DNA of 38,159 nucleotides from a virus, in IMG/VR virus record IMGVR_UViG_3300043429_000425, positions 1 to 38,159 of that record; one strand, 5' to 3'. Of this stretch, positions 1 to 38,159 are shown piece by piece; position 1 is the stretch's first letter, and the number at the start of each line of letters is the position of its first letter. The position numbers were made by a program, and so were the translations under genes. The notes under the pieces are model-generated. The model was not told where the DNA came from and did not search any database. It saw only the letters and a list, made by a program, of their open reading frames with translations.

Positions 1-592
1 ATTCTAACTCTGCACTATCTCTATAACTGGCATTTATACCGCCTAGTACTGTAGGAAAAGCATTTATATAATCCCACTTCGCTACTGCATTTTCATATTC
101 GTCTAATGCTAAAACGGTAAACGTCGATGAATACTCTGTTAATCGTCCTGTTGAATCTCTTCCTAGTTGTTTGTAATCAAATTGTGAATTCTCATCATCA
201 TTCTGAATATCCAACCATTTATATAAAATATAATAGTTATCGAACCTATTATCTACTGTAAAATTTATATTTAATGGTGGTGCTGACGGTCTAGATAAAC
301 CAGAAAACTTCATAGTCTGTCCAGAATAAGGAACTTCTATTTTATTTATCTGTAATTCAGGAACAACAAACCCCCATATATTAAGCTGCAATCTTTCTAA
401 ATTTCCCCCATGACAAAATCTGGATTCCTTTCGAAGTAAAGGTTTTAGGATATTTGGTATATCCATGATGAGCCTAAATTTATCTTTCCTAGATACATTA
501 GTAGTGGATTGGGTATCTGTGTAGTGGCCTGTAGATATAATCGCAGGAACAGGACATGATATATCTGGAGGAGTCGGTGTATTATTCGCCAT
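1..592 (-). CDS. 19: Tail tube protein, gp19-like (C-terminus cut off by window edge)
   Basis: The frame is open from an ATG at 592 to the left edge, giving about 197 residues. It begins MANNTPTPPDISCPVP and contains phrases typical of the T4 tail tube family: RPSAPPLNINFTVDNRF, then LALDEYENAVAKWDYINAFP followed by TVLGGINASYRDS. In the family this protein polymerises as hexameric rings into the inner tube of the contractile tail. Gene order fits, since the large terminase lies directly upstream on the same strand, as genes 17 and 19 cluster in T4. A TATAAATA box sits only 6 bases before the ATG and there is no Shine-Dalgarno sequence. The assignment rests on motif resemblance; the C-terminus is not visible. 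Confidence 0.75.
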   Translation of the reverse strand, partial: MANNTPTPPDISCPVPAIISTGHYTDTQSTTNVSRKDKFRLIMDIPNILKPLLRKESRFCHGGNLERLQLNIWGFVVPELQINKIEVPYSGQTMKFSGLSRPSAPPLNINFTVDNRFDNYYILYKWLDIQNDDENSQFDYKQLGRDSTGRLTEYSSTFTVLALDEYENAVAKWDYINAFPTVLGGINASYRDSAELE

Positions 593-598
593 TTGTAT

Positions 599-606
599 TA
601 TTTATA
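599..606 (-). promoter_or_regulatory. T4-type late promoter for tail tube gene
   Basis: A perfect TATAAATA on the minus strand ends 6 bases before the ATG at 592. No -35-like hexamer is seen. The box also overlaps the stop region of the terminase gene. With the usual late-promoter geometry the transcript would start at or next to the AUG. Confidence 0.7.
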
Positions 607-2314
607 AGAAATCCCACCCGCCCCCTGTGACATTCTGTGCATATTTTTCTCTGATATCAATAGGCGTTTCTGTTCCGAAATTGAATACTGCATTATAAAT
701 TCTTCCTCCTCCAATATCACGTATAGGTTTGGATCGATCTAATCCGTTTTTAAAATAATTATCGACCAAATATTGATTAGGATCGCTTATTTTTATAGGT
801 GCGCCTGAATCGTCATATTCTTCAATATCTAAATAACGCTCTGCAATATCTTTTTTAAGGATAACTAGTGCCCATACCATCGCCATAACACGGTCATCAT
901 GGTATCCCTTTTTAGCACCCCAAGTCTTATTTTCTTTACGAATAAATGACTCGAATTCTGTGACAGATTGAAGATCATATATAGATACCGATTGTTTATG
1001 CTCAACATAATATTTGAGATTCTGAATACCTGCATATTTAGAGTTTTGGTGGCAGAAAATACCAGGATTTTGATAAACACCGCGTTTATCATTTTGCATT
1101 GTATAATTTACGATATTATCATAATTATGAACATTTAGTAATGCATCAATTACAGTTGCACCTTCTTTATTTCGTTCAATACACAGGAAAGGTCTTCCCC
1201 AAGAACGAGCAATTTGATTCAATTTTTCTGCAAAAACCCACGGTGCAATTTTATTGGATGCATAAGTTGCACAATGTTGAATATCAAGGGGATCGGTAAT
1301 ATCTAGTACATGCATAACTGTGAAGTCTTGTCCTACACCTTCTGCAATATCGACACCGATAGTATATATTCTTCCGGGTCTTGGTTCTTGCCAAATATAA
1401 TAATCGCCATTATCAAACGAAAATTCGGCAGGGCAGCACATACCCTTCAATTTTTCAATAACCTGTTGATTGATGGCAGCCGTTCCAGTTTCTAAGAATT
1501 GAATTTCAAACTCTTGATTCCAGGTATCTTTATCAAAGTTAATAGATGCGAGAGTTCGCTTTACCCAATCTGCATCTCTTCCAGGAACATCTGAATAATG
1601 AATTTTAACAGGATACCAACCGTTCGAACCTTTTACTGCACCATCCCAGAATTCATAAAATTTTCCTTGTGCGCCTTTGGGCGTACTAACTAAGACAATT
1701 TTTGCACTTTTTGAAGATGAGATTGTAGGCATTATGGATTTTACGAATGGCTCTATAATCTGTGATTGTAAGTGGGCAAATTCGTCCACAAATAAAAGGT
1801 TTACGGATTTACCACGAATACCAGATTCGGATGTGGTTGATATGAATATCTTGGAACCGTTGTCAAACTTAATATTTTCGTTAGTAAATGTAGGAACACA
1901 TGCTTTAAGCCAATTAGGAAGTTCTTCATAACCCAACTTAATACGTTCAAGAATTTCCTTTGCCTGTTCTTCTTTATTTGCTAAAATAGCAATCGTATAG
2001 TCGCTAGTAAACAATGCATACCACAGACATATAATAGTCATGAGTGTACTTTTTCCGACCTGTCTTGATGCACATATAATAGTCATCTTATTATCTAATA
2101 CAGATGTTATTGCATTTCTTTGAGCGGGATATAATTTAATAGTCTGACGACCCTCATCCAAATTGATAATATAAAAATATTTTTCTGCAAAATATAGAAT
2201 ATCTTCGGAACAACGTTTAAGTTCCATTAATTGTTCTGGGGTATAATCTATTGTAATTGATATGGGAAGTGCTTCATTATTATTGAGAAATTTGTCACTG
2301 TTCTTCTTTGACAT
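602..2314 (-). CDS. 17: Terminase large subunit, gp17-like
   Basis: This is the ATP-driven DNA packaging motor and headful nuclease that docks on the portal. The 570-residue product is slightly shorter than T4 gp17 (610). The N-terminal ATPase has Walker A CASRQVGKST at residues 81-90 and Walker B LLFVDE at 173-178. The C-terminal RNase H-like nuclease shows the expected acidic residues: D322 in IGVDIAEG, E380 in CIERNKEG, and D473/D474 in HDDRVMAM. All catalytic positions appear intact and no intein or intron is seen. The start at 2314 is preceded by TATAAGTA 7 bases upstream. The tail tube gene follows 9 bases downstream. Confidence 0.95.
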   Translation of the reverse strand: MSKKNSDKFLNNNEALPISITIDYTPEQLMELKRCSEDILYFAEKYFYIINLDEGRQTIKLYPAQRNAITSVLDNKMTIICASRQVGKSTLMTIICLWYALFTSDYTIAILANKEEQAKEILERIKLGYEELPNWLKACVPTFTNENIKFDNGSKIFISTTSESGIRGKSVNLLFVDEFAHLQSQIIEPFVKSIMPTISSSKSAKIVLVSTPKGAQGKFYEFWDGAVKGSNGWYPVKIHYSDVPGRDADWVKRTLASINFDKDTWNQEFEIQFLETGTAAINQQVIEKLKGMCCPAEFSFDNGDYYIWQEPRPGRIYTIGVDIAEGVGQDFTVMHVLDITDPLDIQHCATYASNKIAPWVFAEKLNQIARSWGRPFLCIERNKEGATVIDALLNVHNYDNIVNYTMQNDKRGVYQNPGIFCHQNSKYAGIQNLKYYVEHKQSVSIYDLQSVTEFESFIRKENKTWGAKKGYHDDRVMAMVWALVILKKDIAERYLDIEEYDDSGAPIKISDPNQYLVDNYFKNGLDRSKPIRDIGGGRIYNAVFNFGTETPIDIREKYAQNVTGGGWDFL

Positions 2315-2321
2315 ATAAAAC

Positions 2322-2329
2322 TACTTATA
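2322..2329 (-). promoter_or_regulatory. Late promoter variant TATAAGTA before terminase
   Basis: TATAAGTA on the minus strand lies 7 bases before the ATG at 2314. The TAAGTA variant recurs before 11324, 11770, 13617 and 25564. Confidence 0.55.
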
Positions 2330-2353
2330 AAATAGCAAAAATGTTAAAAGTTA

Positions 2354-2361
2354 AATAAATA
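2354..2361 (+). promoter_or_regulatory. Late promoter AATAAATA before acidic head-type gene
   Basis: AATAAATA ends 6 bases before the ATG at 2368. A second overlapping TAAATA begins 4 bases earlier. The site is divergent to the terminase promoter at 2322-2329. Confidence 0.6.
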
Positions 2362-2367
2362 AAAGAT

Positions 2368-3186: not shown

Positions 3187-3210
3187 CCCACATATAATAT
3201 TATATGTGGG
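3187..3210 (+). terminator. Bidirectional rho-independent terminator
   Basis: A perfect 24-base palindrome (arms CCCACATATAAT and ATTATATGTGGG) is flanked by an A run on the left and seven T residues on the right. It ends the 2368 gene and insulates the tail fibre gene, whose late promoter begins 16 bases later. Confidence 0.9.
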
Positions 3211-3225
3211 TTTTTTTATTTTGTA

Positions 3226-3233
3226 TATAAATA
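3226..3233 (+). promoter_or_regulatory. Late promoter TATAAATA for the tail fibre pair
   Basis: A perfect TATAAATA is followed by 5 bases (TCATT) and the ATG at 3239. It lies directly after a terminator, so the fibre genes must have their own promoter here. Its geometry would place the start of transcription on the A of ATG. Confidence 0.8.
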
Positions 3234-3238: not shown

Positions 3239-3901
3239 ATGCCTTATTATATTCCTGACTTGACTTCTAGAACAACATGTATAGGAAATACACTATCAAC
3301 TTTTAATATAAGTTTTTCATCTCTAGATACCAATTTATATAATCTATCTTCGTATACTGTTAATAGTGTAAACTATCTGAGTTCTACAATGGTTTCCACT
3401 AGTGCAACATTGAACACTAGGATCAATTATCTGAGTTCTACAATGGTTTCCACTAGTGCAACATTGAACACTAGGATTGATTATTTAAGTTCTACGATGA
3501 TTTCTACTAGTGGCGCATTGTTAAATCATATAAATTTTGTGAGTTCATCAGTAGATTACGTATCGGCAAATGTGGTCAATGATTTTATATTACAGGGTGT
3601 TCTTACTATAAACTCTGCCGCAGAGATTAATTGGAATTTTGATGAAGTTGGTAGTAATGCCATAATACATTTAGAGGGTAAAGCCAAATTAAACAATCCA
3701 ACAGAAATTTTTGCAGGACAGAGCGGGAACCTTATCATAAAAGTGGCCAGTGCGGGTTCTGAATTATCTGCATTTGGGTCTTTGTGGACTTTCGTGGACA
3801 ACAATTCCGCATTTTATACCACACTTTCTGCAAAGAATGTTATCTCATTCTACTATGATGGAGAACAGTTCCTCTCTAATATGAATTTCTTTAACATTTA
3901 A
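3239..3901 (+). CDS. Tail fibre-like protein with coiled-coil repeats
   Basis: The 220-residue product starts at the ATG at 3239 (MPYYIPDLTS). An in-frame ATG at 3206 lies inside the terminator, upstream of the promoter, so I reject it. Residues about 40-115 hold three to four 18-residue repeats of the type INYLSSTMVSTSATLNTR with a hydrophobic periodicity expected of a trimeric coiled coil. The C-terminal half looks like a beta-rich fibre tip, ending in VISFYYDGEQFL, a phrase common at the ends of phage fibre proteins. The next gene starts one base after its stop codon. The role (fibre shaft or connector) is inferred; the receptor is unknown. Confidence 0.75.
   Translation: MPYYIPDLTSRTTCIGNTLSTFNISFSSLDTNLYNLSSYTVNSVNYLSSTMVSTSATLNTRINYLSSTMVSTSATLNTRIDYLSSTMISTSGALLNHINFVSSSVDYVSANVVNDFILQGVLTINSAAEINWNFDEVGSNAIIHLEGKAKLNNPTEIFAGQSGNLIIKVASAGSELSAFGSLWTFVDNNSAFYTTLSAKNVISFYYDGEQFLSNMNFFNI
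3374..3481 (+). repeat. 54-base tandem repeat in the fibre shaft
   Basis: Bases 3374-3423 are repeated exactly at 3428-3477 (period 54, 18 codons). A third, diverged copy follows from 3482. In protein terms this is the coiled-coil unit of the fibre. Confidence 0.95.
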
Positions 3902-5941: not shown

Positions 5942-5969
5942 TATTTAAAATACAAAACAAGTATTTCAA
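5942..5969 (-). promoter_or_regulatory. Sigma-70-like promoter TTGAAA-N16-TAAATA
   Basis: On the minus strand, TTGAAA (5969-5964) is followed after 16 bases by TAAATA (5947-5942), which lies 6 bases before the ATG at 5935. Confidence 0.5.
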
Positions 5970-6478
5970 GGTTTTTTGTTAAAAAATTGCGAAATACCTG
6001 ATTTAAATTTATCGTATATATTTGATAGCTTGTTTGGAATTTTATCGGGTGTGTTTTGTGCAACTTGCCCAGGAATGATCATATTTCCGACGTATCCCAT
6101 AAAATCAATCTTTTGTTGATTAGACATACCTATTATATAATCATAAAAATACTGCATGAATTGCTCTTGTTCTTCAGGAGTGTTAAGTGGAAATTGTTTT
6201 CTAATTTCCACTTGCTCTGCACCAAATACCCGGTATTCTTGTCGAAACATATCCCACACAACGCATAGATTATATGCTTTATAATTATATCCCATTCCAA
6301 CACCTTTAGGAGGGTGGAAGTGTAAAACCTGTGAACCAAAATCCCCATTAAGAAGGGGGAAGTTCGTGGTTCCGAACATCCCCCTTATATCTGACCATCC
6401 CAATTTTGGGTGTCTTCTAACAAATGTCAATTCTACTACATTAGTTCCTAAGATAGATTGAAGTTGACTGTTGTTCAT
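5966..6478 (-). CDS. Conserved T4-like phage protein of unknown function
   Basis: The 170-residue product contains VVELTFVRRHPKLGWSDIRG, then YNLCVVWDMFRQEYR. I recall this arrangement (VVEL-x-F-x-RR ... N-L-x-V-x-WD-x-F-x-Q-x-YR) from widespread hypothetical proteins of T4-like phages of marine and soil bacteria; their function is not known to me. The C-terminal third is rich in Gln/Asn/Lys and ends in an amphipathic stretch. The stop codon of the upstream gene is part of the TGATAAATA box that lies 5 bases before this gene's ATG. Confidence 0.75.
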   Translation of the reverse strand: MNNSQLQSILGTNVVELTFVRRHPKLGWSDIRGMFGTTNFPLLNGDFGSQVLHFHPPKGVGMGYNYKAYNLCVVWDMFRQEYRVFGAEQVEIRKQFPLNTPEEQEQFMQYFYDYIIGMSNQQKIDFMGYVGNMIIPGQVAQNTPDKIPNKLSNIYDKFKSGISQFFNKKP

Positions 6479-6483: not shown

Positions 6484-6491
6484 TATTTATC
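6484..6491 (-). promoter_or_regulatory. Late-type box GATAAATA with embedded stop codon
   Basis: GATAAATA on the minus strand ends 5 bases before the ATG at 6478. The TGA stop of the upstream gene (6490-6492) overlaps it, so stop, promoter and start are packed in 17 bases. Confidence 0.55.
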
Positions 6492-7168: not shown

Positions 7169-7196
7169 TATTTAGGCACTACTTTTGTTCTTGCAA
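7169..7196 (-). promoter_or_regulatory. Promoter before co-chaperonin gene
   Basis: TTGCAA (7191-7196, palindromic) is followed on the minus strand by 16 bases and TAAATA (7174-7169), 6 bases before the ATG at 7162. The box can also be read as the CTAAATA late motif known from T4-like cyanophages. Confidence 0.5.
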
Positions 7197-8733: not shown

Positions 8734-8741
8734 AGTAAATA
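8734..8741 (+). promoter_or_regulatory. Late promoter AGTAAATA
   Basis: AGTAAATA is followed by 5 bases (TACAT) and the ATG at 8747. No -35-like hexamer is evident. Confidence 0.6.
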
Positions 8742-11283: not shown

Positions 11284-11312
11284 AATATAGCGAGTAAGCC
11301 CACATTTTTCAA
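11284..11312 (-). promoter_or_regulatory. Sigma-70-like promoter for primase
   Basis: On the minus strand TTGAAA (11312-11307), 17 bases, TATATT (11289-11284), then 6 bases to the ATG at 11277. The -35 box overlaps the late box of the divergent gene at 11311-11318. Confidence 0.65.
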
Positions 11313-11318
11313 TAAGTA
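11311..11318 (+). promoter_or_regulatory. Late promoter variant AATAAGTA
   Basis: AATAAGTA is followed by 5 bases (AATAC) and the ATG at 11324. Confidence 0.5.
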
Positions 11319-11323: not shown

Positions 11324-11761
11324 ATGACCCCTGAATTTGATCAATTTTGTGAATCTCTTATTCGTGAATATACAACTGCGAAATCCAAACGTAGAGAGTC
11401 GCGCTATTGGGCAGATACCATGTTTCCCAAGTCGGGTGTTAGACAGGTACGCTCCCTAAATAATCATTCAGACTCGCAAAAAACCAAGTTAGGAAATCAA
11501 CAATATATAGGAAATTATTGGGATGGAAAAGGTGCTAGGGGACAGAATAAATCCCAAAAAGATCATGCACAGGCAGGTATTGCAAAAGGTCTAGGAGGTC
11601 ATTTAAGAATAAAAGGTGTGAACCCTAAAAAGCCAGGAGCAAGAGTAAACTCTAAACAAGGAAATATGGAGGTTAAATATACATTAAAGAATGGTGTTTC
11701 TAAAATAGGCTCCGTAGGTAAAACAGATTTTCAATTCCTCGAACCTAAACATTACAAGTAA
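11324..11761 (+). CDS. Basic candidate internal head protein
   Basis: The 145-residue product is not recognised. It begins MTPEFDQFCESLIREYT, resembling a capsid-targeting peptide with an I-x-E site (13-15), followed by a Lys/Arg/Gly-rich body that could bind DNA. The segment YIGNYWDGKGARGQNKSQKD resembles the QGNYDGKAR repeats of the 2368-3162 product. The stop codon TAA is part of the AGTAAGTA box used by the next gene. The gene is divergent from the primase, and its promoter overlaps the primase -35 box. A role as a DNA-binding protein packaged in the head is inferred. Confidence 0.75.
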   Translation: MTPEFDQFCESLIREYTTAKSKRRESRYWADTMFPKSGVRQVRSLNNHSDSQKTKLGNQQYIGNYWDGKGARGQNKSQKDHAQAGIAKGLGGHLRIKGVNPKKPGARVNSKQGNMEVKYTLKNGVSKIGSVGKTDFQFLEPKHYK

Positions 11762-11764
11762 GTA
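11757..11764 (+). promoter_or_regulatory. Late promoter variant AGTAAGTA with embedded stop codon
   Basis: AGTAAGTA contains the TAA stop of the upstream gene (11759-11761) and ends 5 bases before the ATG at 11770. Confidence 0.5.
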
Positions 11765-13602: not shown

Positions 13603-13609
13603 TTAAGTA
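13603..13609 (+). promoter_or_regulatory. Late promoter variant TTAAGTA
   Basis: TTAAGTA lies 7 bases before the ATG at 13617. Weaker than the other boxes. Confidence 0.35.
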
Positions 13610-15201: not shown

Positions 15202-15209
15202 TATTTACC
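15202..15209 (-). promoter_or_regulatory. Late-type promoter GGTAAATA
   Basis: GGTAAATA on the minus strand lies 7 bases before the ATG at 15194. One base separates it from the plus-strand TATAAATA at 15211, so two divergent late promoters abut. Confidence 0.5.
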
Positions 15210-15210: not shown

Positions 15211-15218
15211 TATAAATA
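15211..15218 (+). promoter_or_regulatory. Late promoter TATAAATA for the tail operon
   Basis: Perfect TATAAATA, followed by TAAATA (6 bases) and the ATG at 15225. Confidence 0.75.
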
Positions 15219-15224: not shown

Positions 15225-17216
15225 ATGGCTACTACGATAAATGATGCACTTTCTGCAATAGATGATTACATGTCTAAGAATGGTAAGGGACAGTCATATC
15301 TTGCAAAAAAATTTATAGATCTATTCGAAAGCAAAAATTCTCCACTTAATGTGGTTGATGGGCCAATGAAATTAGTTTCAGATAAATTTAATAAATTAGG
15401 AAAAAAGGTAGATGATTTGACCTTGTCCGTAGGTAGTTTCAATACAAAGGTCAGAATATTGATGGCAGCAATAAAACCTAGTACATTCAATAAATTGAAT
15501 ACTGCTGCGGAAGATTTGACAAAAAGGTTGAATAATTATGTATTAAAATTTCCCAAAGTTGGCGCAGGTACAAGAAACAGAACACCTACTATTCCTAAGA
15601 CTTTATTGGATAATGTTAATAAAATTCGTATTAATACGAATGGTTTACTGATGACCAATAAACTTCTAAGGAATATTGAAAGATTATTAAGAGATTCGTT
15701 GCAAGAAAAAGCCTTGCAGAGCAATTCAACCCAACCCAGCCAAATTAATAAAAAAATGGTTCTTAATTTATTTTCCAACAATACTAATAATTCTGCAAAC
15801 AACCTGGGAGATGATAAGAAATCCGGTATATTCGGGAAGATGTTTAAATATGCAATGCTCGGAACGGGTGTTTATCTATTAGGAAAATTTAAGAAATACT
15901 TAGACGAAACCGCGACTGGAAGAGCAATACAAAGCATCTTATCAGGAACATTTCAATCTATTTTAACTTCTATAACAGACTTTGTAAAATCCGAAGAAAC
16001 TTGGAAGACCTTTGGACGTTCTGCATTATTTATAATTGATGGTATCAAGGCTATATCTGATAATATATTCAAATATGTCGTAGAGCCTATTGCTGATAAA
16101 GTGAAAACCACTGATTGGGGCAAGGTTGCTAATTATATGGGTGATAAAGTAATATGGGTCTCGAAGAATATATTAGAGCCTATATTTACTAGTATTGGCG
16201 AATCTATGAAAAAGGATTTTGAAAAAGGAGAATATGGTTCGTTAGGGGTTAAGATACTAGGGTCGGCAGGAATTTTATCTCTATTGAAATTTGTTCCAGG
16301 TATTGGACTCGCTCTCAGAGGAATATCAACTATTTTTAAAGGATCGTGGAAGATATTATCAGGACTATTCAGTATTTTAGGTAAATTACCACTAGGAACC
16401 GCTGCATCATTCGTTCAAGGAATAAAGACTTTTGGATTGGCCGTAGGAAGATTTTCTATAATTGGAGGAATCATATCTGGTATCGCATATACTTTATATA
16501 AAATTCCGGGTATATTAAAAGAATTTCCTCTTATGATGAATGATGTAATAGATTTATTCACTACATCAAAGGAGATGCTCGCTAAAAATAATGCAAGCAT
16601 GTCTAATGCTATTAAAAAATCTATATCTACTCAAGACGAAATTATTAAGAATCTCGAAGAGAAGAAGAGAAATGTTGGACTGTCTTGGAAAGAAGAAAAT
16701 GAGTTAGCTATTGCAAGATATAAGAAAGATATATCAAATATAAACAACGAGCGTTCAGTTATCAACAAACGTTCTGGCGATCAAGGATTTCTTGGGAGTA
16801 TTATAGGTAATCCTAGTCAAAAACTTCGCGATCAAAGATTAAAAGAATTACAGGATAGGGAAATATCAACCGCAAAAGCTATTAATATTTTAACCAATGC
16901 AAATAAGACTAAGGTCCAAGATGCTGAAATTATTATACCGAATAAAAAGGATGCACATATCTTTGCAAAAGGTGGTGGACCATTCGACCAAGCTCTTAAA
17001 GATGTTAATAAAAAAATAGACACGATTGTAGCCGTTTTAAGCAATGGTTTCAGCGGTTTGGCGGCTGTGACTGCTCAGAGTAGCGGAAACGTCGCACAAG
17101 CGGTTATTGCGAGCGCAGGAGCCTCTAAGCAACCTCATCCTACCATCATTGGAGGAAGTAACCCTATCCAACGTCATAGAATTAATACTGGGCGACATAT
17201 TGAGTTCGGTCAATAA
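15225..17216 (+). CDS. 29: Tail tape measure protein, gp29-like
   Basis: The 663-residue product is close to T4 gp29 (590). It has a long helical N-terminus (about 1-190), a central hydrophobic region with several glycine-rich membrane-like segments (YAMLGTGVYLLGKF near 210; ILGSAGILSLLKFVPGIGLA near 345; IIGGIISGIAYTLYKI near 408), a charged coiled-coil section (about 450-560), and an Ala/Gly/Ser-rich tail. In the family the protein sits inside the tube, sets its length and may help DNA cross the inner membrane. Its place at the start of the operon leading to the tube cap and hub proteins supports the call. Confidence 0.65.
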   Translation: MATTINDALSAIDDYMSKNGKGQSYLAKKFIDLFESKNSPLNVVDGPMKLVSDKFNKLGKKVDDLTLSVGSFNTKVRILMAAIKPSTFNKLNTAAEDLTKRLNNYVLKFPKVGAGTRNRTPTIPKTLLDNVNKIRINTNGLLMTNKLLRNIERLLRDSLQEKALQSNSTQPSQINKKMVLNLFSNNTNNSANNLGDDKKSGIFGKMFKYAMLGTGVYLLGKFKKYLDETATGRAIQSILSGTFQSILTSITDFVKSEETWKTFGRSALFIIDGIKAISDNIFKYVVEPIADKVKTTDWGKVANYMGDKVIWVSKNILEPIFTSIGESMKKDFEKGEYGSLGVKILGSAGILSLLKFVPGIGLALRGISTIFKGSWKILSGLFSILGKLPLGTAASFVQGIKTFGLAVGRFSIIGGIISGIAYTLYKIPGILKEFPLMMNDVIDLFTTSKEMLAKNNASMSNAIKKSISTQDEIIKNLEEKKRNVGLSWKEENELAIARYKKDISNINNERSVINKRSGDQGFLGSIIGNPSQKLRDQRLKELQDREISTAKAINILTNANKTKVQDAEIIIPNKKDAHIFAKGGGPFDQALKDVNKKIDTIVAVLSNGFSGLAAVTAQSSGNVAQAVIASAGASKQPHPTIIGGSNPIQRHRINTGRHIEFGQ

Positions 17217-17219
17217 ATA
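17212..17219 (+). promoter_or_regulatory. Late promoter AATAAATA
   Basis: AATAAATA lies 6 bases before the ATG at 17226. It overlaps the stop codon of the tape measure gene (17214-17216). Confidence 0.55.
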
Positions 17220-17225: not shown

Positions 17226-18341
17226 ATGAAAATCCAATACAAACAATCTGATAAAGATTCTAGATTTCTACAACCTGTAGGAGATGGGATTATTGACGTA
17301 TTGGATATGGCATGGACTCTTTCTCCTAAAGCTGCGAGAAAGGAAGTGCCATACGTTAGACTTACGGAATATCAACAAACAACAGGACAACTTATTGCAT
17401 CTATTGTTTATTATGGACGTGTTGCAGCAAGATTAGTTAATAATGGAGTAACATCTGTTGCACAGGCAGACCGTGATCCATTCGATGTCTATAAATACAA
17501 ATATTTTGCGGAGCCTACTGGATTTACATATAAGTTTCCATACTTTAACACAAAAAAAATATCTCGTCAAAATACATTTGATGATGTTTCCGCAAATCCT
17601 ATTAATGATCTTGCGGGTATGGGTGCCGCTATGAGGTCTTTCCCTGGTGTGGAGAGAGGCTTTAATGCATATACAGAAGGTATTTCAAAAATAAAATCCG
17701 CCAGAGATTTAATGACTGGCATTGCTAATGTGATTCTTCCAGGAAGAGTAGGCTTTGAAATGCCTAAATCTTGGACAGATACTACAACAGAATCATACAC
17801 TGTTACATTTGATCTTTTTAATACTGGAACTCTCGAAGATGTAGAGAATAATAGAAATCTATGCCATTTATTATCTTATCAGAACTCGCCATCTCGTAGA
17901 AATTTTGCGATTATTGACCCACCTGTTATATATTCACTGACCATTCCTGATGTAGTTCATATGCCTGCGTGTTGGATGTCAAATTTAGAAATTACAAACT
18001 TAGGAAATACCAGAGTAAAATATCTAGCATCTTCGGACGGAAGTACTAGTGTCCCAAGAACTATTCCTGAAGCATATAGAATAACTATGGAATTTACATC
18101 ATTACTGATGCCTTCTAGAAATATACTTCTTGCGCTTGATAAAGGAGTAAGTGTAGAAGCTATTAGTGATATTACTCCATTTGAACCTGCGATAAGAAAT
18201 TATGCGAACGAATTAGTTAATTTCGAGAATTTGAAAAGAAACTCGGACGGAACTCCTGTAAACGTTATGAATATAAACTCTCGGGATAGGTTAACTGCTG
18301 CCGAGGGTAATTTAAATGAGGTTTTTAGACTGAATAATTGA
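17226..18341 (+). CDS. 48: Baseplate tail-tube cap, gp48-like
   Basis: The 371-residue product matches T4 gp48 (364) in length and in style. Key segments are ARKEVPYVRLTEYQ with YYGRVAARL in the N-terminal region, and a C-terminal tube-fold half with SYTVTFDLFNT, IDPPVIYSLTIPDVVHMPAC, WMSNLEITNLGN and AYRITMEFTSLLMPSRNIL. In T4, gp48 caps the hub together with gp54 before tube polymerisation. The gene lies between the tape measure and the gp53-like gene, as expected for a baseplate cluster. A late box stands 6 bases upstream. The next gene begins one base after its stop. Confidence 0.75.
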   Translation: MKIQYKQSDKDSRFLQPVGDGIIDVLDMAWTLSPKAARKEVPYVRLTEYQQTTGQLIASIVYYGRVAARLVNNGVTSVAQADRDPFDVYKYKYFAEPTGFTYKFPYFNTKKISRQNTFDDVSANPINDLAGMGAAMRSFPGVERGFNAYTEGISKIKSARDLMTGIANVILPGRVGFEMPKSWTDTTTESYTVTFDLFNTGTLEDVENNRNLCHLLSYQNSPSRRNFAIIDPPVIYSLTIPDVVHMPACWMSNLEITNLGNTRVKYLASSDGSTSVPRTIPEAYRITMEFTSLLMPSRNILLALDKGVSVEAISDITPFEPAIRNYANELVNFENLKRNSDGTPVNVMNINSRDRLTAAEGNLNEVFRLNN

Positions 18342-18342: not shown

Positions 18343-18669
18343 ATGGCAAACAATTTACATCCTTACGACTATGCAAATATATTCTCAACTTATACAGATG
18401 AGGATGGATACGAATTTTATAATCTTTCAAATGCAATTAACATTTCTGGTGATATAGATGAAGGTTTGGTAACATATGATACTATCTATTCCTTTTCGGA
18501 TTGGTATTCTTTATCATTTAAGCATTATGGAACTACTCGTTTGTGGTGGATTATATTAGTTGCAAATAATATTTCAAATCCGTTTGATGTAATCGAAGGA
18601 CAGCGTGTTAAAATTCTAAAAAAAGAGATAGTATCAGAAGTTCTTAGTCAAATAAATAACACCAAGTAA
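18343..18669 (+). CDS. 53: Baseplate wedge protein, gp53-like
   Basis: The 108-residue product contains YDTIYSFSDWYSLSFKHYG followed by TTRLWWIILVANNISNPFDV and IEGQRVKIL, a LysM-like fold typical of gp53 of T4-like phages, where it clamps neighbouring wedges together around the hub. It is shorter than T4 gp53 (196 residues). Its ATG follows the gp48-like stop by one base (TGATATG), and its own TAA stop is embedded in the AGTAAATA box of the next gene. Confidence 0.7.
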   Translation: MANNLHPYDYANIFSTYTDEDGYEFYNLSNAINISGDIDEGLVTYDTIYSFSDWYSLSFKHYGTTRLWWIILVANNISNPFDVIEGQRVKILKKEIVSEVLSQINNTK

Positions 18670-18672
18670 ATA
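18665..18672 (+). promoter_or_regulatory. Late promoter AGTAAATA with embedded stop codon
   Basis: AGTAAATA contains the TAA stop (18667-18669) of the gp53-like gene and lies 5 bases before the GTG start at 18678. The spacing supports that GTG start. Confidence 0.6.
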
Positions 18673-18677: not shown

Positions 18678-20228
18678 GTGAACGAACAAGATAATCAATA
18701 TAATTTTAATCAACAGGATTATGAAATGACTGTTAGGATATATAATGGTTACAATAACGTATATCTCACAAACGAATCATGGGAAGATTTAGTAATTGAG
18801 GAAGATATTTTTGATTGGAAAATCAAGGGTAGTTTAGTTATAAAGACTCCCTATGAATCTTTCGAGCGGGATAGTGATACCTCATTAAACAAAAAAGAGA
18901 ACGATATATATAAATTCCGAAATGACGGCAGGGACACTATTTTCATAAGTATAAAACCTAAAACATCTTCTGTTCCTGGATTGGTTGATGATATACTATT
19001 TGAAGATAGTAAATGGTTGATCGAATTTGAAGGTGTTATATATGATACCGAAGATTTATCAGGTGCAGACTTTTCTAATAAAATGAAAAAGGTTTTCTTC
19101 TGGGAGAAGGTATATCAATTAATGATTGAACGGGATTCGGAGTTTTCAACTGCAAACACTGGTAAAAATAAAGGAAAGGGAAATCTAAGTCAGTTAGATA
19201 ATTCTGAAAAAAGTTTAAAAACTGGTGATTCTGTGGGAGAGCTTCTAAAATCAGCCCCTGAATTTACAAAATATACTAAAAATGTAGGGAAAATTGCAGA
19301 ATGGGACGCGGGTAGTGACGATAATATGATATTTTATTCGTCGCCCGTTCATGCTAAGTTTATAGATGATCTAGAATATCTTTTAAACTATACGACATCA
19401 TCGGAAGAGAATGATTATCAACCATGTATTTTCAAACTTGAGAGATCACAGGAAAAAATGAAACCTAAACAGTTTTCGTTAAAATCAATTAAGAAATACT
19501 TCGAAAAGGCCGGAAAGGATACGGCAAAAGACTTTCAAATAGAGCATTTCTTTATAGAGGAACATTCAGAGAATAATCAAAGTCCTTATATTAAAAAAGC
19601 ACCGATCAATGATAGTCCTATATTAGAAGTTAAGGCCGATCAATACAACACCATCAAAGAATATCAACTAATTGATATGAGTGGACTGACATATTCTCAA
19701 AATCTGGCTAATTATCGAGTAGTGTCTTATAATTCATCTGGTGGCCAATTTAATGAAGAGGGAATGACTCATAAAGCAGAGGAATATAGAAAGTTTTACA
19801 ATAATAGTATATCCAAAAATATATTGACTAATAATACACAAGATCGGCTTAATCTAACACCATATATTAGGGACGGATTAAATACGAGAACTGTTTATTC
19901 CTTGCGAAGTGATGATTTAGGTCGGTTAGCTGATGGAAGAAATCGCCTATTAAAATATTATCTATTTTCAAATCTGGGTATTGCATTTACTATACAAGGT
20001 TTAACTATCAGACAACCTGGAAGATTTTTCGGATTATCCAAGCTAACTGGAAATGATAAAGAATACGACTCAAAGTTAGAAGGTCAATACTTTGTTACGA
20101 ATATAATACATCATTTTAATAATACTACAAAGACATATCAAACACAAATTACAGGAATAAAAACTCATACCTATAAAGAGATGACCACATTTGAACCAAG
20201 TGACGTGGATATAATTAGCAGTAAATAA
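18678..20228 (+). CDS. 27: Baseplate hub protein, gp27-like
   Basis: The gene starts with GTG, 5 bases after a late box. The 516-residue product has an N-terminal domain with EMTVRIYNGYNNVYLTNESW and DIFDWKIKGSLVIKTPYESF, then FEGVIYDTEDLS and KKVFFWEKVYQLMIERDSEF, and a C-terminal part with GRLADGRNRLLKYYLFSN, LTIRQPGRFFGLSK and GQYFVTNIIHHFNNTTKTYQ. This sequence of ring-forming beta domains is what I expect of gp27-type hub proteins (T4 gp27 is 391 residues), which form the trimeric cup above the gp5 spike. The extra length lies in a polar insertion around 145-290. The downstream OB-fold and spike genes support the call. Confidence 0.6.
   Translation: MNEQDNQYNFNQQDYEMTVRIYNGYNNVYLTNESWEDLVIEEDIFDWKIKGSLVIKTPYESFERDSDTSLNKKENDIYKFRNDGRDTIFISIKPKTSSVPGLVDDILFEDSKWLIEFEGVIYDTEDLSGADFSNKMKKVFFWEKVYQLMIERDSEFSTANTGKNKGKGNLSQLDNSEKSLKTGDSVGELLKSAPEFTKYTKNVGKIAEWDAGSDDNMIFYSSPVHAKFIDDLEYLLNYTTSSEENDYQPCIFKLERSQEKMKPKQFSLKSIKKYFEKAGKDTAKDFQIEHFFIEEHSENNQSPYIKKAPINDSPILEVKADQYNTIKEYQLIDMSGLTYSQNLANYRVVSYNSSGGQFNEEGMTHKAEEYRKFYNNSISKNILTNNTQDRLNLTPYIRDGLNTRTVYSLRSDDLGRLADGRNRLLKYYLFSNLGIAFTIQGLTIRQPGRFFGLSKLTGNDKEYDSKLEGQYFVTNIIHHFNNTTKTYQTQITGIKTHTYKEMTTFEPSDVDIISSK
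20220..20227 (+). promoter_or_regulatory. Late promoter AGTAAATA with embedded stop codon
   Basis: AGTAAATA holds most of the gp27-like gene's stop region (TAA at 20226-20228 and an out-of-frame TAA) and ends 7 bases before the ATG at 20235. Confidence 0.5.
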
Positions 20229-22729: not shown

Positions 22730-22737
22730 TCTAAATA
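22730..22737 (+). promoter_or_regulatory. Late promoter TCTAAATA
   Basis: TCTAAATA lies 6 bases before the ATG at 22744. The CTAAATA form is the late motif described for T4-like cyanophages. Confidence 0.55.
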
Positions 22738-25570: not shown

Positions 25571-25578
25571 TACTTACA
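25571..25578 (-). promoter_or_regulatory. Late promoter variant TGTAAGTA for endolysin
   Basis: TGTAAGTA on the minus strand lies 6 bases before the ATG at 25564, directly after the T run of the upstream terminator, so the endolysin is an independent transcription unit. Confidence 0.5.
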
Positions 25579-25952: not shown

Positions 25953-25960
25953 TATTTATA
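25953..25960 (-). promoter_or_regulatory. Late promoter TATAAATA
   Basis: Perfect TATAAATA on the minus strand, 5 bases (CTTAT) before the ATG at 25947, in the 13-base gap after the upstream gene's stop. Confidence 0.75.
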
Positions 25961-27322: not shown

Positions 27323-27935
27323 CTATTATATTTTCAGGTATGGGTTCAGGTTCTAATTCTATTTTAAGCTTTTCGGCCATCTCTTTGATCTTAGCAGTGA
27401 GAGTGTCTACTGTTAGTATAAGTTGCTCATTAGTCTTAATCAACTTATTTAATGACTTTTTCTGTGATTTAATTTCTTTAATAAGAGCATCGCGAAATTC
27501 TTGTTCATCTTCGAGGTACACTTTTTGAGATGAGGCATTGTAATTAGGCATCACAAATCCTCCAGAGGGTTCCATCATAGGTGCTACTTGTGGTCCACCT
27601 TGATTTGGGAGTTGTAAATGCGCAGGAACGACGTATTGCTTTATAGGTCCATTCAAAGTTCCCTCAGGAATAACCAAATCATCTCCTCCTTGTGGGGGCG
27701 GTAATCCCTGTTGCGGATAATATTGTTGCGGAGGAGGACCGTAATTATGATTATACTGCCCATGATATTGATGCGCAGGGTGCATCGGTTGTGGCTGTTG
27801 GACATTAGGATGCCCATTTAAAAAATTTCTAAAATCTGTGCGATTATATCGCAGACCTTGGCTTCCTGCCAGACCTTGGCGCATCTCTCTTTCAACAGAA
27901 GCGGCTAATATTGCAATATCGGTGTTATCATCCAT
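27300..27935 (-). CDS. Pro/Gln/His-rich protein with C-terminal coiled coil, between SSB and clamp
   Basis: I start at the ATG at 27935 (MDDNTDIAIL, 211 residues). A TTG start 9 bases upstream is possible. Residues about 45-85 are rich in Pro, Gln, His and Tyr (HQYHGQYNHNYGPPPQQYYP), then a linker with PNQGG, then a charged coiled coil (about 140-195, ALIKEIKSQKKSLNKLIK) and an acidic tail. The family is not recognised. It overlaps the clamp start by 23 bases. Promoter and start codon lie within a strong inverted repeat. A regulator or clamp partner (for example a gp33-type coactivator) is speculation from position. Confidence 0.75.
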   Translation of the reverse strand: MDDNTDIAILAASVEREMRQGLAGSQGLRYNRTDFRNFLNGHPNVQQPQPMHPAHQYHGQYNHNYGPPPQQYYPQQGLPPPQGGDDLVIPEGTLNGPIKQYVVPAHLQLPNQGGPQVAPMMEPSGGFVMPNYNASSQKVYLEDEQEFRDALIKEIKSQKKSLNKLIKTNEQLILTVDTLTAKIKEMAEKLKIELEPEPIPENIIDEVKDKS

Positions 27936-28906: not shown

Positions 28907-28937
28907 ATTTTTATATTTTATTCTAATTATTCTAACA

Positions 28938-30323: not shown

Positions 30324-30352
30324 TATTTAACTATCTCCCACTAACTTATCAA
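30324..30352 (-). promoter_or_regulatory. Sigma-70-like promoter inside the helicase 3' end
   Basis: On the minus strand TTGATA (30352-30347), 17 bases, TAAATA (30329-30324), 6 bases, ATG at 30317. The TAA stop of the helicase (30329-30327) is part of the -10 box. The same hexamers and spacing occur at 27973-27945. Confidence 0.6.
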
Positions 30353-32441: not shown

Positions 32442-32610
32442 CTTTTTTATTTATGATACCTTTAAGAACCTTTGCACAATATTCAAAAACTTTACGTTCT
32501 TGTTTAATGGCATTATCATTAGTCCCTAAAGAAACCAATGGTACTGTTTTCGATCCTTTTGCAACATTACTCCATTCATCAACTATAATTTCTAATTCAT
32601 GTTTATTCAT
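32422..32610 (-). CDS. Hypothetical protein, 62 residues
   Basis: A small product (MNKHELEIIVDEWSNVAKGS) not recognised. I take the ATG at 32610; an upstream TTG is less likely. GGAGG lies 8 bases before this ATG, one of the very few Shine-Dalgarno-like sites in the window, but the same bases encode the Gly-Gly end of the preceding protein, so it may be incidental. The gene overlaps its neighbour downstream by 20 bases. Confidence 0.6.
   Translation of the reverse strand: MNKHELEIIVDEWSNVAKGSKTVPLVSLGTNDNAIKQERKVFEYCAKVLKGIINKKDDTSNS
32435..32459 (-). repeat. Inverted repeat around a promoter and start codon
   Basis: GTATCAT (32435-32441) and ATGATAC (32453-32459) are perfect 7-base arms separated by 11 bases. 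The repeat encloses the TAAATA box and includes the ATG at 32441. It could be an operator or a small hairpin at the start codon. Confidence 0.6.
32448..32455 (-). promoter_or_regulatory. Promoter box CATAAATA
   Basis: CATAAATA on the minus strand, 6 bases before the ATG at 32441. No good -35 hexamer at 16-18 bases, so it reads as a late-type box. Confidence 0.45.
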
Positions 32611-35069: not shown

Positions 35070-35074
35070 ATTAA

Positions 35075-35103: not shown

Positions 35104-35110
35104 CAAAATT

Positions 35111-35425
35111 TTACATTTTTCCCTGATTTTTTCTTTCTAATAAATGATAATTTGAAAGTGCATTCATATTGAATCCTGATAAAAGATCGAGATATTGTCC
35201 ACGCAAGAGTTGATATTCTTTTATAAACTCTTGCGTTTCCCATTCTTTCAATCTCATAAGTTCTTCTTTGGAAATCCACAACCCTCTTAAATAATCATTT
35301 CGAATATCTTCTATAGATCGTTCTTCAAAAATTATATTCCATCTACGTTTAAATTCAACCGAAAAGGTCGTCCAACGAATACTCAAGTTGTTTTTTAGGG
35401 TTTGGTACATTCCATTTAAGAGCAT
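35111..35425 (-). CDS. Hypothetical protein overlapping the polymerase 3' end
   Basis: Not recognised. The frame is open for about 104 residues from an ATG at 35425; other ATG at 35410 is equally possible. The convincing part begins near WNIIFEERSIEDIRNDYLRG and continues with WISKEELMRLKEWETQEFIK, a charged helical sequence that resembles a small replication-accessory or structural protein. The 5' third (35355-35425) overlaps the polymerase gene on the same strand in another frame, which is unusual for this genome and makes the true start uncertain. Confidence 0.6.
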   Translation of the reverse strand: MLLNGMYQTLKNNLSIRWTTFSVEFKRRWNIIFEERSIEDIRNDYLRGLWISKEELMRLKEWETQEFIKEYQLLRGQYLDLLSGFNMNALSNYHLLERKNQGKM

Positions 35426-37937
35426 CAAATATAGGTTCTAAACATTTAACCACACATTTATCAAACATAGCCTCTCTGTCAATTTCCAATTCAAATTCTT
35501 CGGGAAGCTCGTCCAGATATGCAATTCCTGCAATATTATATTTATTAGGTTTAACATATGCTAATTTTATTTTTTTACCACCTTCAATTAAAGGATATTT
35601 ATTATCAAGATTTAGCAATTTCACCAAATGATTGTAATATAAAGAGAATTTAACATGTTGTGGGCAACCAGAGCCAGTATCAAGACCATTAGAAGATGCT
35701 TCCCATTTATCTAAAACCTTAATAGATGAGCGGGTTGACACATCATTCTGGGGCATAGTAAAAAAGTCATCATAGGATTTGAAAAAATGGTCATCTGCCA
35801 CCTTCTTATCAGGTGCATCGAAAATACCCTTCACGATAGATTTGGTGATATTACGAGTTTTTTCTGAAAAGGACGACTTAACTACAGAAAGCCCTTTATA
35901 TTTGAATTTATTCATTTTCACACCTTCGGAATTACGAATATCCATAACATAATGCTTTTTAGCTACCCAAATAGCTTTTGGACATGCAGATTCGCGTTTA
36001 AATTCAAATCTACAATCCTTAGTATTGAGGGTTTCTTCTGCCCATTTTACTACACCTTTATTGAGGTTTTCAGTTATTTTATTTTCAATTTCAATAAATT
36101 CAGGAGTTAAATCTCCGTTACTATCGACGATTGTAGAGTTTGATAACTTCAAAATATCATCAATACAAATAATCGCAGAGTCGGTATCTTCGGCAATCAC
36201 ACGGTCCTTCTTCTCTAAATTCCACTCCTTCTGAACATATTCGTTGGCTATTTTATCAGATTGCTTAATAAGGGCTTGACCCGTGAGCGTGATACTTTTT
36301 GCACAATCTAGGTCGTACAGAGGAAAGAATCGATTTGCAAGAACACCATAAGTAGAATTTAACAAAATCTTATAAAGATACTGCTCAGTATCTAATTGAG
36401 AAATCAATTTTTTTATGGATTTATACTCATCGCTACCCTTTTCTATAGTAGATAATTTATTCTCCCATTTAAACATTTCCTTTTTAACCTTTTTGCGCTT
36501 CTGGTAAAGACCGTCTGCGAATTCTGCACATAACCCTTTCTTATCCTGACTGAATAGAATTCCAGCGGCAGATAATGCCCATCCCTTCTCTTCGATAAGA
36601 GGTAAGAACTTATCTTTTGGTATATCTATAATTTTGCGAGCTTTTACAAAATCAACTTTAACAATAGAATCATCCTGTTTTATAACACGTCCTACCTTTG
36701 TTTCAGGTGAAATATTAAGAGTGATAATTGTATTCGGATAAAGTGAATTTAAATCCATAACTACAATATTTTCATACATTCCAGGCTCGGGATCTTTCAC
36801 ATATCCACCAGGAATAGTCTGTTGCTCACCCCCACTTTGGGTGGTTATGATTTGATTATTCATTAAACCTTGCTTTGCAATAATACCACCGATAATAGCA
36901 ACCTTCCCTAGTGCTTTATCAACGTTACAGAATCCGCTGAATGCAGAGAATCGTGCAACATCAAGATATTTCCTCTTTTCATCAATGAGCATAAGAATCT
37001 TTACGTCCCATATGTTATAATTGATGAATTTATTCCAATCTTTGTTACATAATTCGTTTAAAGACATGGAACCATAATCAAGTTTACCACCAATATCTTC
37101 TTCTTTTGCAACATAATCTAAAGAATCACTTTCGCGTTCACCCGGAGTAAATGTTTTGTACAAAACCATATAATCAAGGTGAGAAATTCCGCCTATGGTA
37201 TATTCTGTATAAACTTGCGAGAATTTATTCTCTTTCTCTTGACCATACAAATAATCCACGGGCGATAATACCGAACCTTTTCCTGGTTCAAAAACTTGGT
37301 CTATTCTATGAATGATGTAAGGAATATCGAAACTATAAGAATTGTACCCAACTATTAAATCTGGAAAATTTGCTCTCCAAAATTTAATAAGTTTCTTTAA
37401 TAGATCGGTTTCTGAAATACAATATGTATATACGATTTCTTCGGGTTCTATTCCTTCTAGGTGATCTTTACATGAATAATGATCATATCGCTTAGTTCCC
37501 CATACATAATACTTTTTGGTTTTAGTATCATATATTGTAATAGATGTTAATGGGAACTTGGCATCTTTCGGATCGGGAAATTCATCAGCAATAACCTCGA
37601 TGTCAAAAAAGAAGGTTCTTAGAGGTTGACTGGTTAATTCCTGAATATCTTTTGTATAATATTTTTCTAAAAGATATTGTTGTGTTGGAGGGAGATTAAA
37701 ATACGGAACACCTTTATAGGTTTTGAGGAAATCATTACGTTCCCATTCAGAGATGAATTCTCTTCTAGTCAACGGCTTGTCATCAATACCATAGGCATCG
37801 ATCTTTTTAGGATCAACCGATGGAATATATAAAAATGGTTTAAATTGTTCTTTACGATATACAGGTTCTCCGGTTTCGTCATATAACCAGTGATGAATAA
37901 CTGATCGTCTTCTGTCATAGAAAGTATTTCTTAGCAT
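35355..37937 (-). CDS. 43: DNA polymerase, family B, gp43-like
   Basis: The 860-residue product (T4 gp43 898) has the 3'-5' exonuclease motifs FFFDIEVI (109-116, D112/E114), YNSYSFDIP (198-206) and NYNIWDVKI (306-314), and the polymerase motifs A DLNSLYP (395-401), B KILLNSTYG (523-531) and C AEDTDSA (582-588). Motif C has Glu in place of the usual Gly before DTDS. The C-terminus SLDDLFG (854-860) resembles the T4 clamp-binding tail SLDFLFG. It is the replicative polymerase of the phage. The first gene of the replication block, preceded by TTGCAA-N17-TATCTT, 6 bases before the ATG; the -35 box is shared with the divergent gene at 38000. Confidence 0.95.
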   Translation of the reverse strand: MLRNTFYDRRRSVIHHWLYDETGEPVYRKEQFKPFLYIPSVDPKKIDAYGIDDKPLTRREFISEWERNDFLKTYKGVPYFNLPPTQQYLLEKYYTKDIQELTSQPLRTFFFDIEVIADEFPDPKDAKFPLTSITIYDTKTKKYYVWGTKRYDHYSCKDHLEGIEPEEIVYTYCISETDLLKKLIKFWRANFPDLIVGYNSYSFDIPYIIHRIDQVFEPGKGSVLSPVDYLYGQEKENKFSQVYTEYTIGGISHLDYMVLYKTFTPGERESDSLDYVAKEEDIGGKLDYGSMSLNELCNKDWNKFINYNIWDVKILMLIDEKRKYLDVARFSAFSGFCNVDKALGKVAIIGGIIAKQGLMNNQIITTQSGGEQQTIPGGYVKDPEPGMYENIVVMDLNSLYPNTIITLNISPETKVGRVIKQDDSIVKVDFVKARKIIDIPKDKFLPLIEEKGWALSAAGILFSQDKKGLCAEFADGLYQKRKKVKKEMFKWENKLSTIEKGSDEYKSIKKLISQLDTEQYLYKILLNSTYGVLANRFFPLYDLDCAKSITLTGQALIKQSDKIANEYVQKEWNLEKKDRVIAEDTDSAIICIDDILKLSNSTIVDSNGDLTPEFIEIENKITENLNKGVVKWAEETLNTKDCRFEFKRESACPKAIWVAKKHYVMDIRNSEGVKMNKFKYKGLSVVKSSFSEKTRNITKSIVKGIFDAPDKKVADDHFFKSYDDFFTMPQNDVSTRSSIKVLDKWEASSNGLDTGSGCPQHVKFSLYYNHLVKLLNLDNKYPLIEGGKKIKLAYVKPNKYNIAGIAYLDELPEEFELEIDREAMFDKCVVKCLEPIFDALKWNVPNPKKQLEYSLDDLFG

Positions 37938-37943
37938 CGTACT

Positions 37944-37972
37944 AAGATAGCGGTGAAAGAAAGACCTTGCAA
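37944..37972 (-). promoter_or_regulatory. Polymerase promoter TTGCAA-N17-TATCTT
   Basis: On the minus strand TTGCAA (37972-37967), 17 bases, TATCTT (37949-37944), 6 bases, ATG at 37937. TTGCAA is its own complement and doubles as the -35 box of the divergent promoter. Confidence 0.55.
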
Positions 37973-37994
37973 GAACAAAGATCGAGTATATAGT
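37967..37994 (+). promoter_or_regulatory. Divergent promoter TTGCAA-N16-TATAGT
   Basis: TTGCAA (37967-37972), 16 bases, TATAGT (37989-37994), then 5 bases (GTGTC) to the ATG at 38000. It shares the -35 hexamer with the polymerase promoter. Confidence 0.55.
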
Positions 37995-37999
37995 GTGTC

Positions 38000-38159
38000 A
38001 TGGATTTACCATATCTTATAAAATTTATAAATTCAAAATTAAACTTAAAATCTCCCACATCCAAGGAATTACGGGCAGAAATCGTATGTATGAGTGCTAT
38101 TCGTGGATTTGATGCCAAGTATATATTTGGAGACTTTTTTGGAAGTAATAGTGTATTTC
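38000..38159 (+). CDS. Unknown gene, start only (cut by right window edge)
   Basis: A frame opens at ATG 38000 and runs to the edge, giving 53 residues beginning MDLPYLIKFINSKLNLKSPT and continuing ELRAEIVCMSAIRGFDAKYI. The sequence suggests a helical start (possibly a helix-turn-helix-like RAEIVCMSAIRGFD) but no family can be named. It is transcribed away from the polymerase gene and its promoter shares the -35 box. Full length and stop codon are outside the window. Confidence 0.6.
   Translation, partial: MDLPYLIKFINSKLNLKSPTSKELRAEIVCMSAIRGFDAKYIFGDFFGSNSVF

Follow-up and report, generated by a model that had tools for sequence, protein, structure and literature searches.

Introduction

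Phage T4 is the standard textbook example of a lytic phage, and its late genes serve textbooks as the model of a phage sigma factor with leadered mRNAs. T4 late transcription involves gp33 and gp45 besides this sigma factor, gp55. The late box occupies positions -13 to -6 or so, transcription starts about 6-7 nucleotides (nt) after the box in T4 and in bacteria, and the start sites favoured by bacterial RNA polymerase have a pyrimidine at -1 and a purine at +1. In the leaderless mRNAs of bacteria and archaea, the -10 box lies about 6 nt before an ATG start and there is no Shine-Dalgarno (SD) site. Here we analyse a 38,159-base stretch of viral DNA (the window; IMG/VR virus record IMGVR_UViG_3300043429_000425) in which T4-type late boxes and host-type -10 boxes end a few nucleotides before start codons. 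A preliminary description had proposed such a leaderless architecture for the window; its observation was right but understated, as an entire T4-like lineage, present in many metagenomes, has the arrangement in both promoter classes.

Published work touches on the components of this arrangement. The late box NATAAATA is described in cyanophages (PMC2984593), phage transcripts are called 'often leaderless' in a passing remark (PMC5312081), and 6-8% of primary transcription start sites of Prochlorococcus lie at most 10 nt from translation starts (PMC5607370). A survey of pelagimyophages describes its prediction of middle and late promoters as unsuccessful (PMC7029224). Among the matches listed in our literature search, no title concerned leaderless late promoters in T4-like phages.

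Results

We define the gap as the number of nt between the last base of a box and the start codon. For 50 curated window genes, a fixed rule accepted TAAATA or a TATAAT-like hexamer (at most one mismatch) at gap 4-8, and a variant rule accepted TAAGTA at gap 5-7. The preliminary description had counted about 25 genes with a box; the rules yielded 25 of 50, namely 16 with TAAATA, 4 with a TATAAT-like hexamer and 5 with TAAGTA. All 13 of its examples (11 regular cases and the exceptions at 27935 and 34121) were exact in box, start and distance when read back from the sequence.

G001 (66.6 kb) and G002 (90.4 kb), two contigs longer than the window, contain stretches 100% identical to it. The contigs have an overlap of 127 bases, which places the window in a T4-like genome of about 157 kb. 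Seven related contigs, G001-G007, form the clade sample, and seven other T4-like contigs serve as controls. In total, 14 of the 17 numbered related contigs were used, with G012, G013 and G016 left out. Partial sequence was used for G008, G009, G011, G015 and the isolates T4, KVP40, ACP17, DLP_6, phiM12 and XG4, and pattern counts for RM378 and S-PM2. A further sample came from a profile scan, of which we took the best 80 of 529 relatives; 74 of these are new loci, five being in the earlier sample already and L363 being omitted as part of G004. Genes were called as open reading frames (ORFs) of at least 60 codons from the first ATG.

A count of box distances against shuffled sequence had been set beforehand as the check. 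In the window, TAAATA stands at gap 5-7 before 14 of 47 ORFs, compared with a mean of 0.57 and a maximum of 4 in 200 dinucleotide shuffles. The clade gave 110 of 560 ORFs (shuffle mean 4.9), and the controls 6 of 901 (shuffle 6.1). Among the 826 distinct ORFs of the new loci, gaps 5, 6 and 7 were found 193, 72 and 30 times, and gaps 8, 9 and 10 only 17, 19 and 8 times; 72 of the 74 loci had at least one near box, and near boxes outnumbered distant ones in 67, with the reverse in one. In the window, the clade and the new loci alike, the distances are far sharper than AT content predicts.

The same preference appeared when genes were not selected. An ATG lies at gap 5 after 72 of 714 TAAATA sites in the clade, 57 of them opening at least 100 codons, whereas such openings number 0 of 12 at gap 8 and 0 of 9 at gap 12. 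At gaps 5-6, TAAATA was found 94 times, whereas ATAAAT, the anagram that overlaps it with a shift of one base, gave 38 and no other anagram more than 14. The longer form ATAAATA occurs 56 times at gap 5-7 and 7 times at gap 10-40 in the clade, compared with 4 and 90 times in the controls. Twelve larger records held 212 matches to ATAAATA-(5,6)-ATG and 21 to the backward pattern, a control that is weak for the box part because ATAAATA is its own mirror image; we relied instead on anagrams, shuffles and other phages. TAAGTA is a genuine late-box variant: it occurs at gap 5-7 29 times in the clade, where other positions give 1.4 per three, 9 times in the new loci (1.8 elsewhere) and 3 times in the controls (3.6 elsewhere).

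SD sites are rare. Counting an SD-like 4-mer at -18 to -5, we found sites in 6 of 47 window ORFs, compared with 38 of 54 in a T4 late region; the preliminary description had called them nearly absent. In the clade they are at chance (32 of 560 genes; 36.9 expected on shuffling the same 14 bases), while they precede 556 of 901 genes in the control contigs and 770 of 1558 in nine isolates. The new loci had SD sites in 85 of 826 genes, and 55 of the 74 loci were below 20%. The start codon at gaps 5-6 after TAAATA (clade openings of at least 100 codons) is ATG in 96 cases, GTG in 3 and TTG in 4. In box distance (about 5-7 nt), chance-level SD sites and AUG starts, the clade resembles the leaderless genes of bacteria and archaea, whereas T4-type late promoters are followed by a leader with an SD site; leaderless mRNAs are known from cellular genomes, whereas here they would characterize a phage lineage and two promoter classes. 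As a separate observation, G017 (L084-L085) has SD sites in only 9 of 43 genes though its late boxes lie mostly 22-29 nt upstream, so that a low SD frequency also occurs without leaderless placement.

In a terminase tree, the trait is characteristic of a single clade. The tree was built from 31 of the 52 terminase matches extracted (some near-copies and most of the short rows were dropped, while two fused readings, G004 and L012, and several near-copies were kept), and its rows were labelled by an SD frequency below 20%. The 12 rows so labelled are one side of a branch with support 100/100. Each has at least two near TAAATA boxes; among the others, HTVC008M has 12, RHph_I1_18 has 6, G011 has 3 and G015 has 2. 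G003 and G005, which are outside the tree, were placed by DNA polymerase (71% and 60% identity).

Homologues of gp55 were found with a hidden Markov model of four known gp55 proteins in G003 (7.6e-17), G002 (8.9e-17) and G005 (1.1e-12); no match was listed for G001, G004, G006 and G007. The gp55 gene of the window's genome (G002 L052:15244-15978) lies outside the window, and the other two are of like length (G003:24504-25235 and G005:77512-78249). The G002 protein carries about 45-50 extra residues ahead of the conserved NPFxYF block, which are absent from T4, HTVC008M, phiM12 and RHph_I1_18.

The T4-type late box NATAAATA occurs upstream of structural genes of the clade, which also uses NNTAAATA and TAAGTA. 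Among 22 clade rows homologous to T4 late genes, some of them weak matches, 14 have TAAATA or TAAGTA at gap 5-7, including gp20, gp13, gp25, gp23 and gp18. The remaining 8 are gp18 of G001 (TAAGTA at gap 8), gp21 (gap 9), gp17 of G006, gp4, gp53 and three uvsW. T4 does use leaders, as the preliminary description held: its late boxes lie 12-35 nt upstream, none at 5-7, and 22 of 24 genes have SD sites. The gp20 genes illustrate the difference, with TATAAATA-5-ATG in the clade and TATAAATA, a leader and GGAG in T4. Thus the clade shares with T4 the box, the kind of gene (gp18, gp20 and gp23 homologues) and a gp55 homologue, but differs in the distance of the box, in the SD sites and in the use of TAAGTA as a second form.

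Near placement is common to the clade, absent in T4 and nearly absent in the other T4-like phages tested except HTVC008M and RHph_I1_18. T4-like cyanophage Syn9 has the same T4-type late box but, unlike the clade, places ATAAATA at 15-39 nt and never at 5-7. The Pelagibacter phage HTVC008M resembles the clade in having ATAAATA at gap 5 before some genes (8 boxes), but it is mixed: 3 ATAAATA are at gap 7-8 and 5 at 18-36, 96 of 178 genes have SD sites, and its sigma-70 boxes have no peak at gap 5-6. Its gap-5 boxes include those of the genes starting at 6280, 7562, 18916 (minus strand), 31132 and 49760, and the genes at 36520 and 46310 have a box at gap 18. Within HTVC008M, SD sites precede 2 of 9 genes with a box at gap 5-7 and 4 of 4 whose box is at least 10 nt away. 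The same split by ATAAATA distance in 25 pelagimyophage-like loci gave SD sites in 1 of 10 near-box genes and in 21 of 21 distant-box genes (p 5e-7), which is good internal evidence that the near box accompanies leader loss. In 55 more distant loci SD sites were found in 5 of 13 near-box genes and 31 of 36 genes at gap 10 or more. Rhizobium phage RHph_I1_18, with few boxes, has 4 near boxes, none with an SD site, and 11 genes with distant boxes, 8 with one. HTVC008M also encodes ribosomal protein S21 (W04:C1:91237-91392, E 4.8e-19), which was found in 0 of 7 clade records.

The host-type promoters follow the same rule. Among the 5-mers of the 427 clade genes that lack TAAATA, CTTGA and TTGAC are the most strongly tied to one position, with their ends 30 and 29 nt ahead of ATG; TTGAC ends at 29 nt in 12 of its 38 occurrences, the place of a -35 element if the -10 box ends at gap 5. 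A sigma-70 scan allowing up to 3 mismatches gave 24 promoters at gap 5 and 14 at gap 6 in the clade (together 38 of 173), compared with 1 and 2 of 101 in shuffled sequence, 2 and 4 of 201 in the controls and 6 of 269 for both gaps in the isolates. G003 contains a perfect TTGACA-17-TATAAT-5-ATG. An in-register -35 element accompanies the TATAAT-like box in 26 of 73 clade genes and 32 of 115 genes of the new loci (5 and 6 at the control position), and it is found in 30 of 138 and 32 of 304 late-box genes, respectively. The position of the -35 element and the peak at gap 5-6 indicate that host-type promoters lie at the start codon, as gp55-type promoters do.

Near boxes (gap 4-8) precede divergently led and co-directional genes alike: 35 of 88 and 151 of 464 in the clade, compared with 7 of 84 and 27 of 810 in the controls and 13 of 260 and 39 of 1293 in the isolates. 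Divergent pairs with 0-40 nt between starts number 15 of 44 in the clade and 48 of 123 in the new loci. This short spacing is weak evidence alone, because pairs closer than 45 nt are common in the controls (12 of 42) and isolates (48 of 130) as well as in the clade (19 of 44). Box-less co-directional clade genes overlap or abut the preceding gene (at most 3 nt) in 178 of 313 cases, compared with 31 of 151 for genes with a box; box-less genes do so in 290 of 783 cases in the controls and 520 of 1254 in the isolates. The pattern is compatible with translational coupling, although spacing and box presence are not independent.

Discussion

The observations, that is, box positions, their restriction to a clade, chance-level SD sites and gp55 homologues, suggest a T4-like clade in which promoter and start codon are fused into one module. 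Late genes would be transcribed by host RNA polymerase with gp55 at TATAAATA and TAAGTA boxes, and host-type genes by the same polymerase with sigma-70 at TTGACA, 16-18 nt, TATAAT. Transcription would start about 6-7 nt past the box, at the A of AUG or 1-2 nt before it, and the resulting mRNA, having no leader, would present a 5'-terminal AUG for direct recognition by the leaderless pathway. SD sites being absent, about a third of genes, even co-directional ones, have a box of their own, and most box-less genes overlap or abut the preceding gene and may be translated by coupling. We consider it very probable that ribosomes translate the promoter-proximal genes on mRNA with no leader or next to none, and the others perhaps by coupling. 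A more far-reaching proposal, which we advance tentatively, is that the lineage abandoned SD translation entirely, early and late promoter-proximal genes being leaderless and internal genes coupled, either because the host lineage ignores SD sites or because the phage switches the ribosome to 5'-AUG recognition.

We infer the 5' ends from the start distance of T4 and bacteria and from the base before ATG. With the T4 late box at about -13 to -6, gap 5 places +1 on the A of AUG. In the new loci, a pyrimidine precedes ATG in 177 of 193 genes at gap 5, compared with 38 of 72 at gap 6 (p 1e-11), where A precedes ATG in 32 of 72; for the seven contigs of the clade sample, the base at -1 is A in 8 of 54 genes with the box at gap 5 but in 16 of 38 with the box at gap 6 (p 0.004). 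These bases fit a start at box +6 or +7, which is the AUG or 1 nt before it. They also bear on the possibility that most genes have their transcription start 1-3 nt ahead of AUG and are translated with a very short leader. The frequent A at gap 6, as a start at box +6 predicts, and the boxes at gap 7-11 speak for such transcripts; yet gap 5 is the most frequent gap, and the pyrimidine that nearly always precedes ATG there points to a start on the AUG itself. A very short leader in most genes is thus a serious but unlikely alternative.

Another explanation would make the AT-rich box a translation-initiation signal, an unstructured A/T-rich site used by an SD-ignoring host on transcripts with ordinary leaders. 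Chance-level SD sites across all clade genes, the majority of them box-less, and AT-rich start regions would suit it. However, the box has the sequence of the T4 late promoter and outnumbers its anagrams at gap 5-6, and the 7 other late boxes of the clade at gap 10-40 would leave its structural genes without late promoters. The in-register -35 elements of the TATAAT-like boxes exceed their control position several times, and the pelagimyophage box is either far, mostly with an SD site, or near, mostly without one. We therefore regard an initiation signal as very improbable. Chance or misannotated starts, which a G+C content of 28-41% and the 21 of 115 clade late boxes built on the preceding gene's stop TAA (2 of 14 late boxes at gap 4-8 in the window) might favour, can be practically dismissed in view of the shuffles, the anagrams, the control phages (several with like G+C) and the test without gene selection.

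Several findings weigh against leaderless translation as a general rule. Half of the curated window genes (25 of 50) and 366 of 552 clade genes have no recognised box (for the clade at gap 4-8, TAAGTA not counted); the 'genome-wide' of the preliminary description holds for promoter-adjacent genes. One window start is GTG. Some boxes lie at gap 8-11 and would leave the mRNA with a leader a few nt long: a 330-codon gene common to the near relatives L003 (4037-5026), L004, L011, L012 and L037 has TATAAATA at gap 11, beside other genes in these loci with a box at gap 5-8. In locus L385 distant boxes outnumber near ones, and 19 of the 74 new loci, all small samples, have SD frequencies of at least 20%. 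The sigma-70 scan shows an excess at gap 0-4 (29, compared with 8 shuffled) for which we have no explanation. The clade pyrimidine at gap 5 is marginal (45 of 54, compared with 300 of 428 box-less genes, p 0.054), pyrimidines being frequent before ATG without a box too. Finally, the gene caller was simple, and near-identical contigs were removed only in part.

If correct, a promoter that was kept while its leader was dropped would mean that a phage can change its mode of translation initiation genome-wide, and the selection of a 5'-terminal AUG by ribosomes could be studied on a natural set of hundreds of candidate leaderless genes. The mixed state of the cultured HTVC008M makes the question testable now. 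Near-start boxes also bear on host identity, and they could explain failed promoter searches in some phages, such as the one described in the pelagimyophage survey (PMC7029224).

Additional observations

Gene products of the window include the terminase large subunit, tail tube, baseplate-like parts, an endolysin-like protein, primase, a DnaB-like helicase, UvsX and a T4-type DNA polymerase, and G001 adds matches to gp23, gp20, the prohead protease and sheath. The T4-like core set gp17, gp43, gp41, UvsX, gp23, gp20 and tail tube/sheath is therefore present (PHROG and Pfam in the window and G001; phmmer against T4 proteins). No close database phage was found, terminase and polymerase reaching 31-37% identity among the matches listed; UvsX reached up to 59%. 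The boxes of the window are listed in Table 1. At the divergent starts 15194 and 15225, 30 nt apart, both boxes stand side by side, and the divergent promoters of the DNA polymerase gene (37937) and the gene at 38000 seemingly have one -35-like TTGCAA in common. Within the gene at 3239, CTGAGTTCTACAATGGTTTCCACTAGTGCAACATTGAACACTAGGAT is present as an exact direct repeat (window 3240-3540).

Table 1. Promoter boxes and adjacent elements of the window; gap in nt, strands as + and -.
Feature	Motif	Position	Strand	Start	Gap	Remark
Late box	TATAAATA	599..606	-	ATG 592	6	tail tube gene, PHROG phrog_45
Variant late box	TAAGTA	2322..2327	-	ATG 2314	7	terminase large subunit gp17; position counted from sequence
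Late box	AATAAATA	2354..2361	+	ATG 2368	6	
Terminator-like hairpin and T run		~3187-3217				directly upstream of box of 3239; judged by eye
Late box	TATAAATA	3226..3233	+	ATG 3239	5	
Late box	TTTAAATA	5942..5949	-	ATG 5935	6	
Late box	GATAAATA	6484..6491	-	ATG 6478	5	
Late box	CCTAAATA	7169..7176	-	ATG 7162	6	
Late box	AGTAAATA	8734..8741	+	ATG 8747	5	
-10 box	TATATT	11284..11289	-	ATG 11277	6	primase-like gene
Variant late box	TAAGTA	11313..11318	+	ATG 11324	5	position counted
Variant late box	TAAGTA	11759..11764	+	ATG 11770	5	position counted
Variant late box	TAAGTA	13604..13609	+	ATG 13617	7	position counted
Late box	GGTAAATA	15202..15209	-	ATG 15194	7	
Late box	TATAAATA	15211..15218	+	ATG 15225	6	
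Late box	AATAAATA	17212..17219	+	ATG 17226	6	
-10-like (weak)	AATAAT	18333..18338	+	ATG 18343	4	
Late box	AGTAAATA	18665..18672	+	GTG 18678	5	
Late box	AGTAAATA	20220..20227	+	ATG 20235	7	
Late box	TCTAAATA	22730..22737	+	ATG 22744	6	
Variant late box	TAAGTA	25571..25576	-	ATG 25564	6	endolysin-like gene; position counted
Terminator-like hairpin with T run						box of 25564 directly downstream of it; judged by eye
Late box	TATAAATA	25953..25960	-	ATG 25947	5	
-10-like (weak)	TAAAAT	28915..28920	-	ATG 28906	8	
Late box	GTTAAATA	30324..30331	-	ATG 30317	6	
Late box	CATAAATA	32448..32455	-	ATG 32441	6	
-10-like	TATCTT	37944..37949	-	ATG 37937	6	DNA polymerase gp43; 2 mismatches, outside count of 25
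-35-like palindromic hexamer	TTGCAA	37967..37972	both			17 nt to TATCTT (-), 16 nt to TATAGT (+); positions counted
-10 box	TATAGT	37989..37994	+	ATG 38000	5	

Attempts to identify the host gave a single lead. The rmlB-like gene of the window's genome matched many phyla at 41-48% (80 loci kept) and indicated no host, and the photosystem family PF00124 was found in 0 of 16 clade records, some of them fragments. Single genomes of other phyla, searched with a looser promoter-start pattern, gave nothing decisive. In 59 genomes of Patescibacteria, the phylum of G018, the pattern TTGACA-16..18-TATAAT-4..7-ATG had 41 matches, compared with 0 for the backward control; 24 genomes had a match and 35 had none. 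This hints at leaderless genes in Patescibacteria, and we treat the phylum as a lead only: one genome sampled had SD sites in 9 of 103 genes, yet no gap-5 peak. In the phage clade, the same sigma-70 promoter-start pattern gave 1 exact match in 445 kb and 17 with TANNNT, and in nine isolates 11 in about 1.17 Mb.

ARAGORN called 3 tRNA genes in the window's genome. Four phage tRNAs that it called tRNA-Met are, as we judge by eye from their features, presumably not initiator tRNAs. Clade member G005 (L067-L069) carries 21 ARAGORN tRNA genes within about 25 kb.

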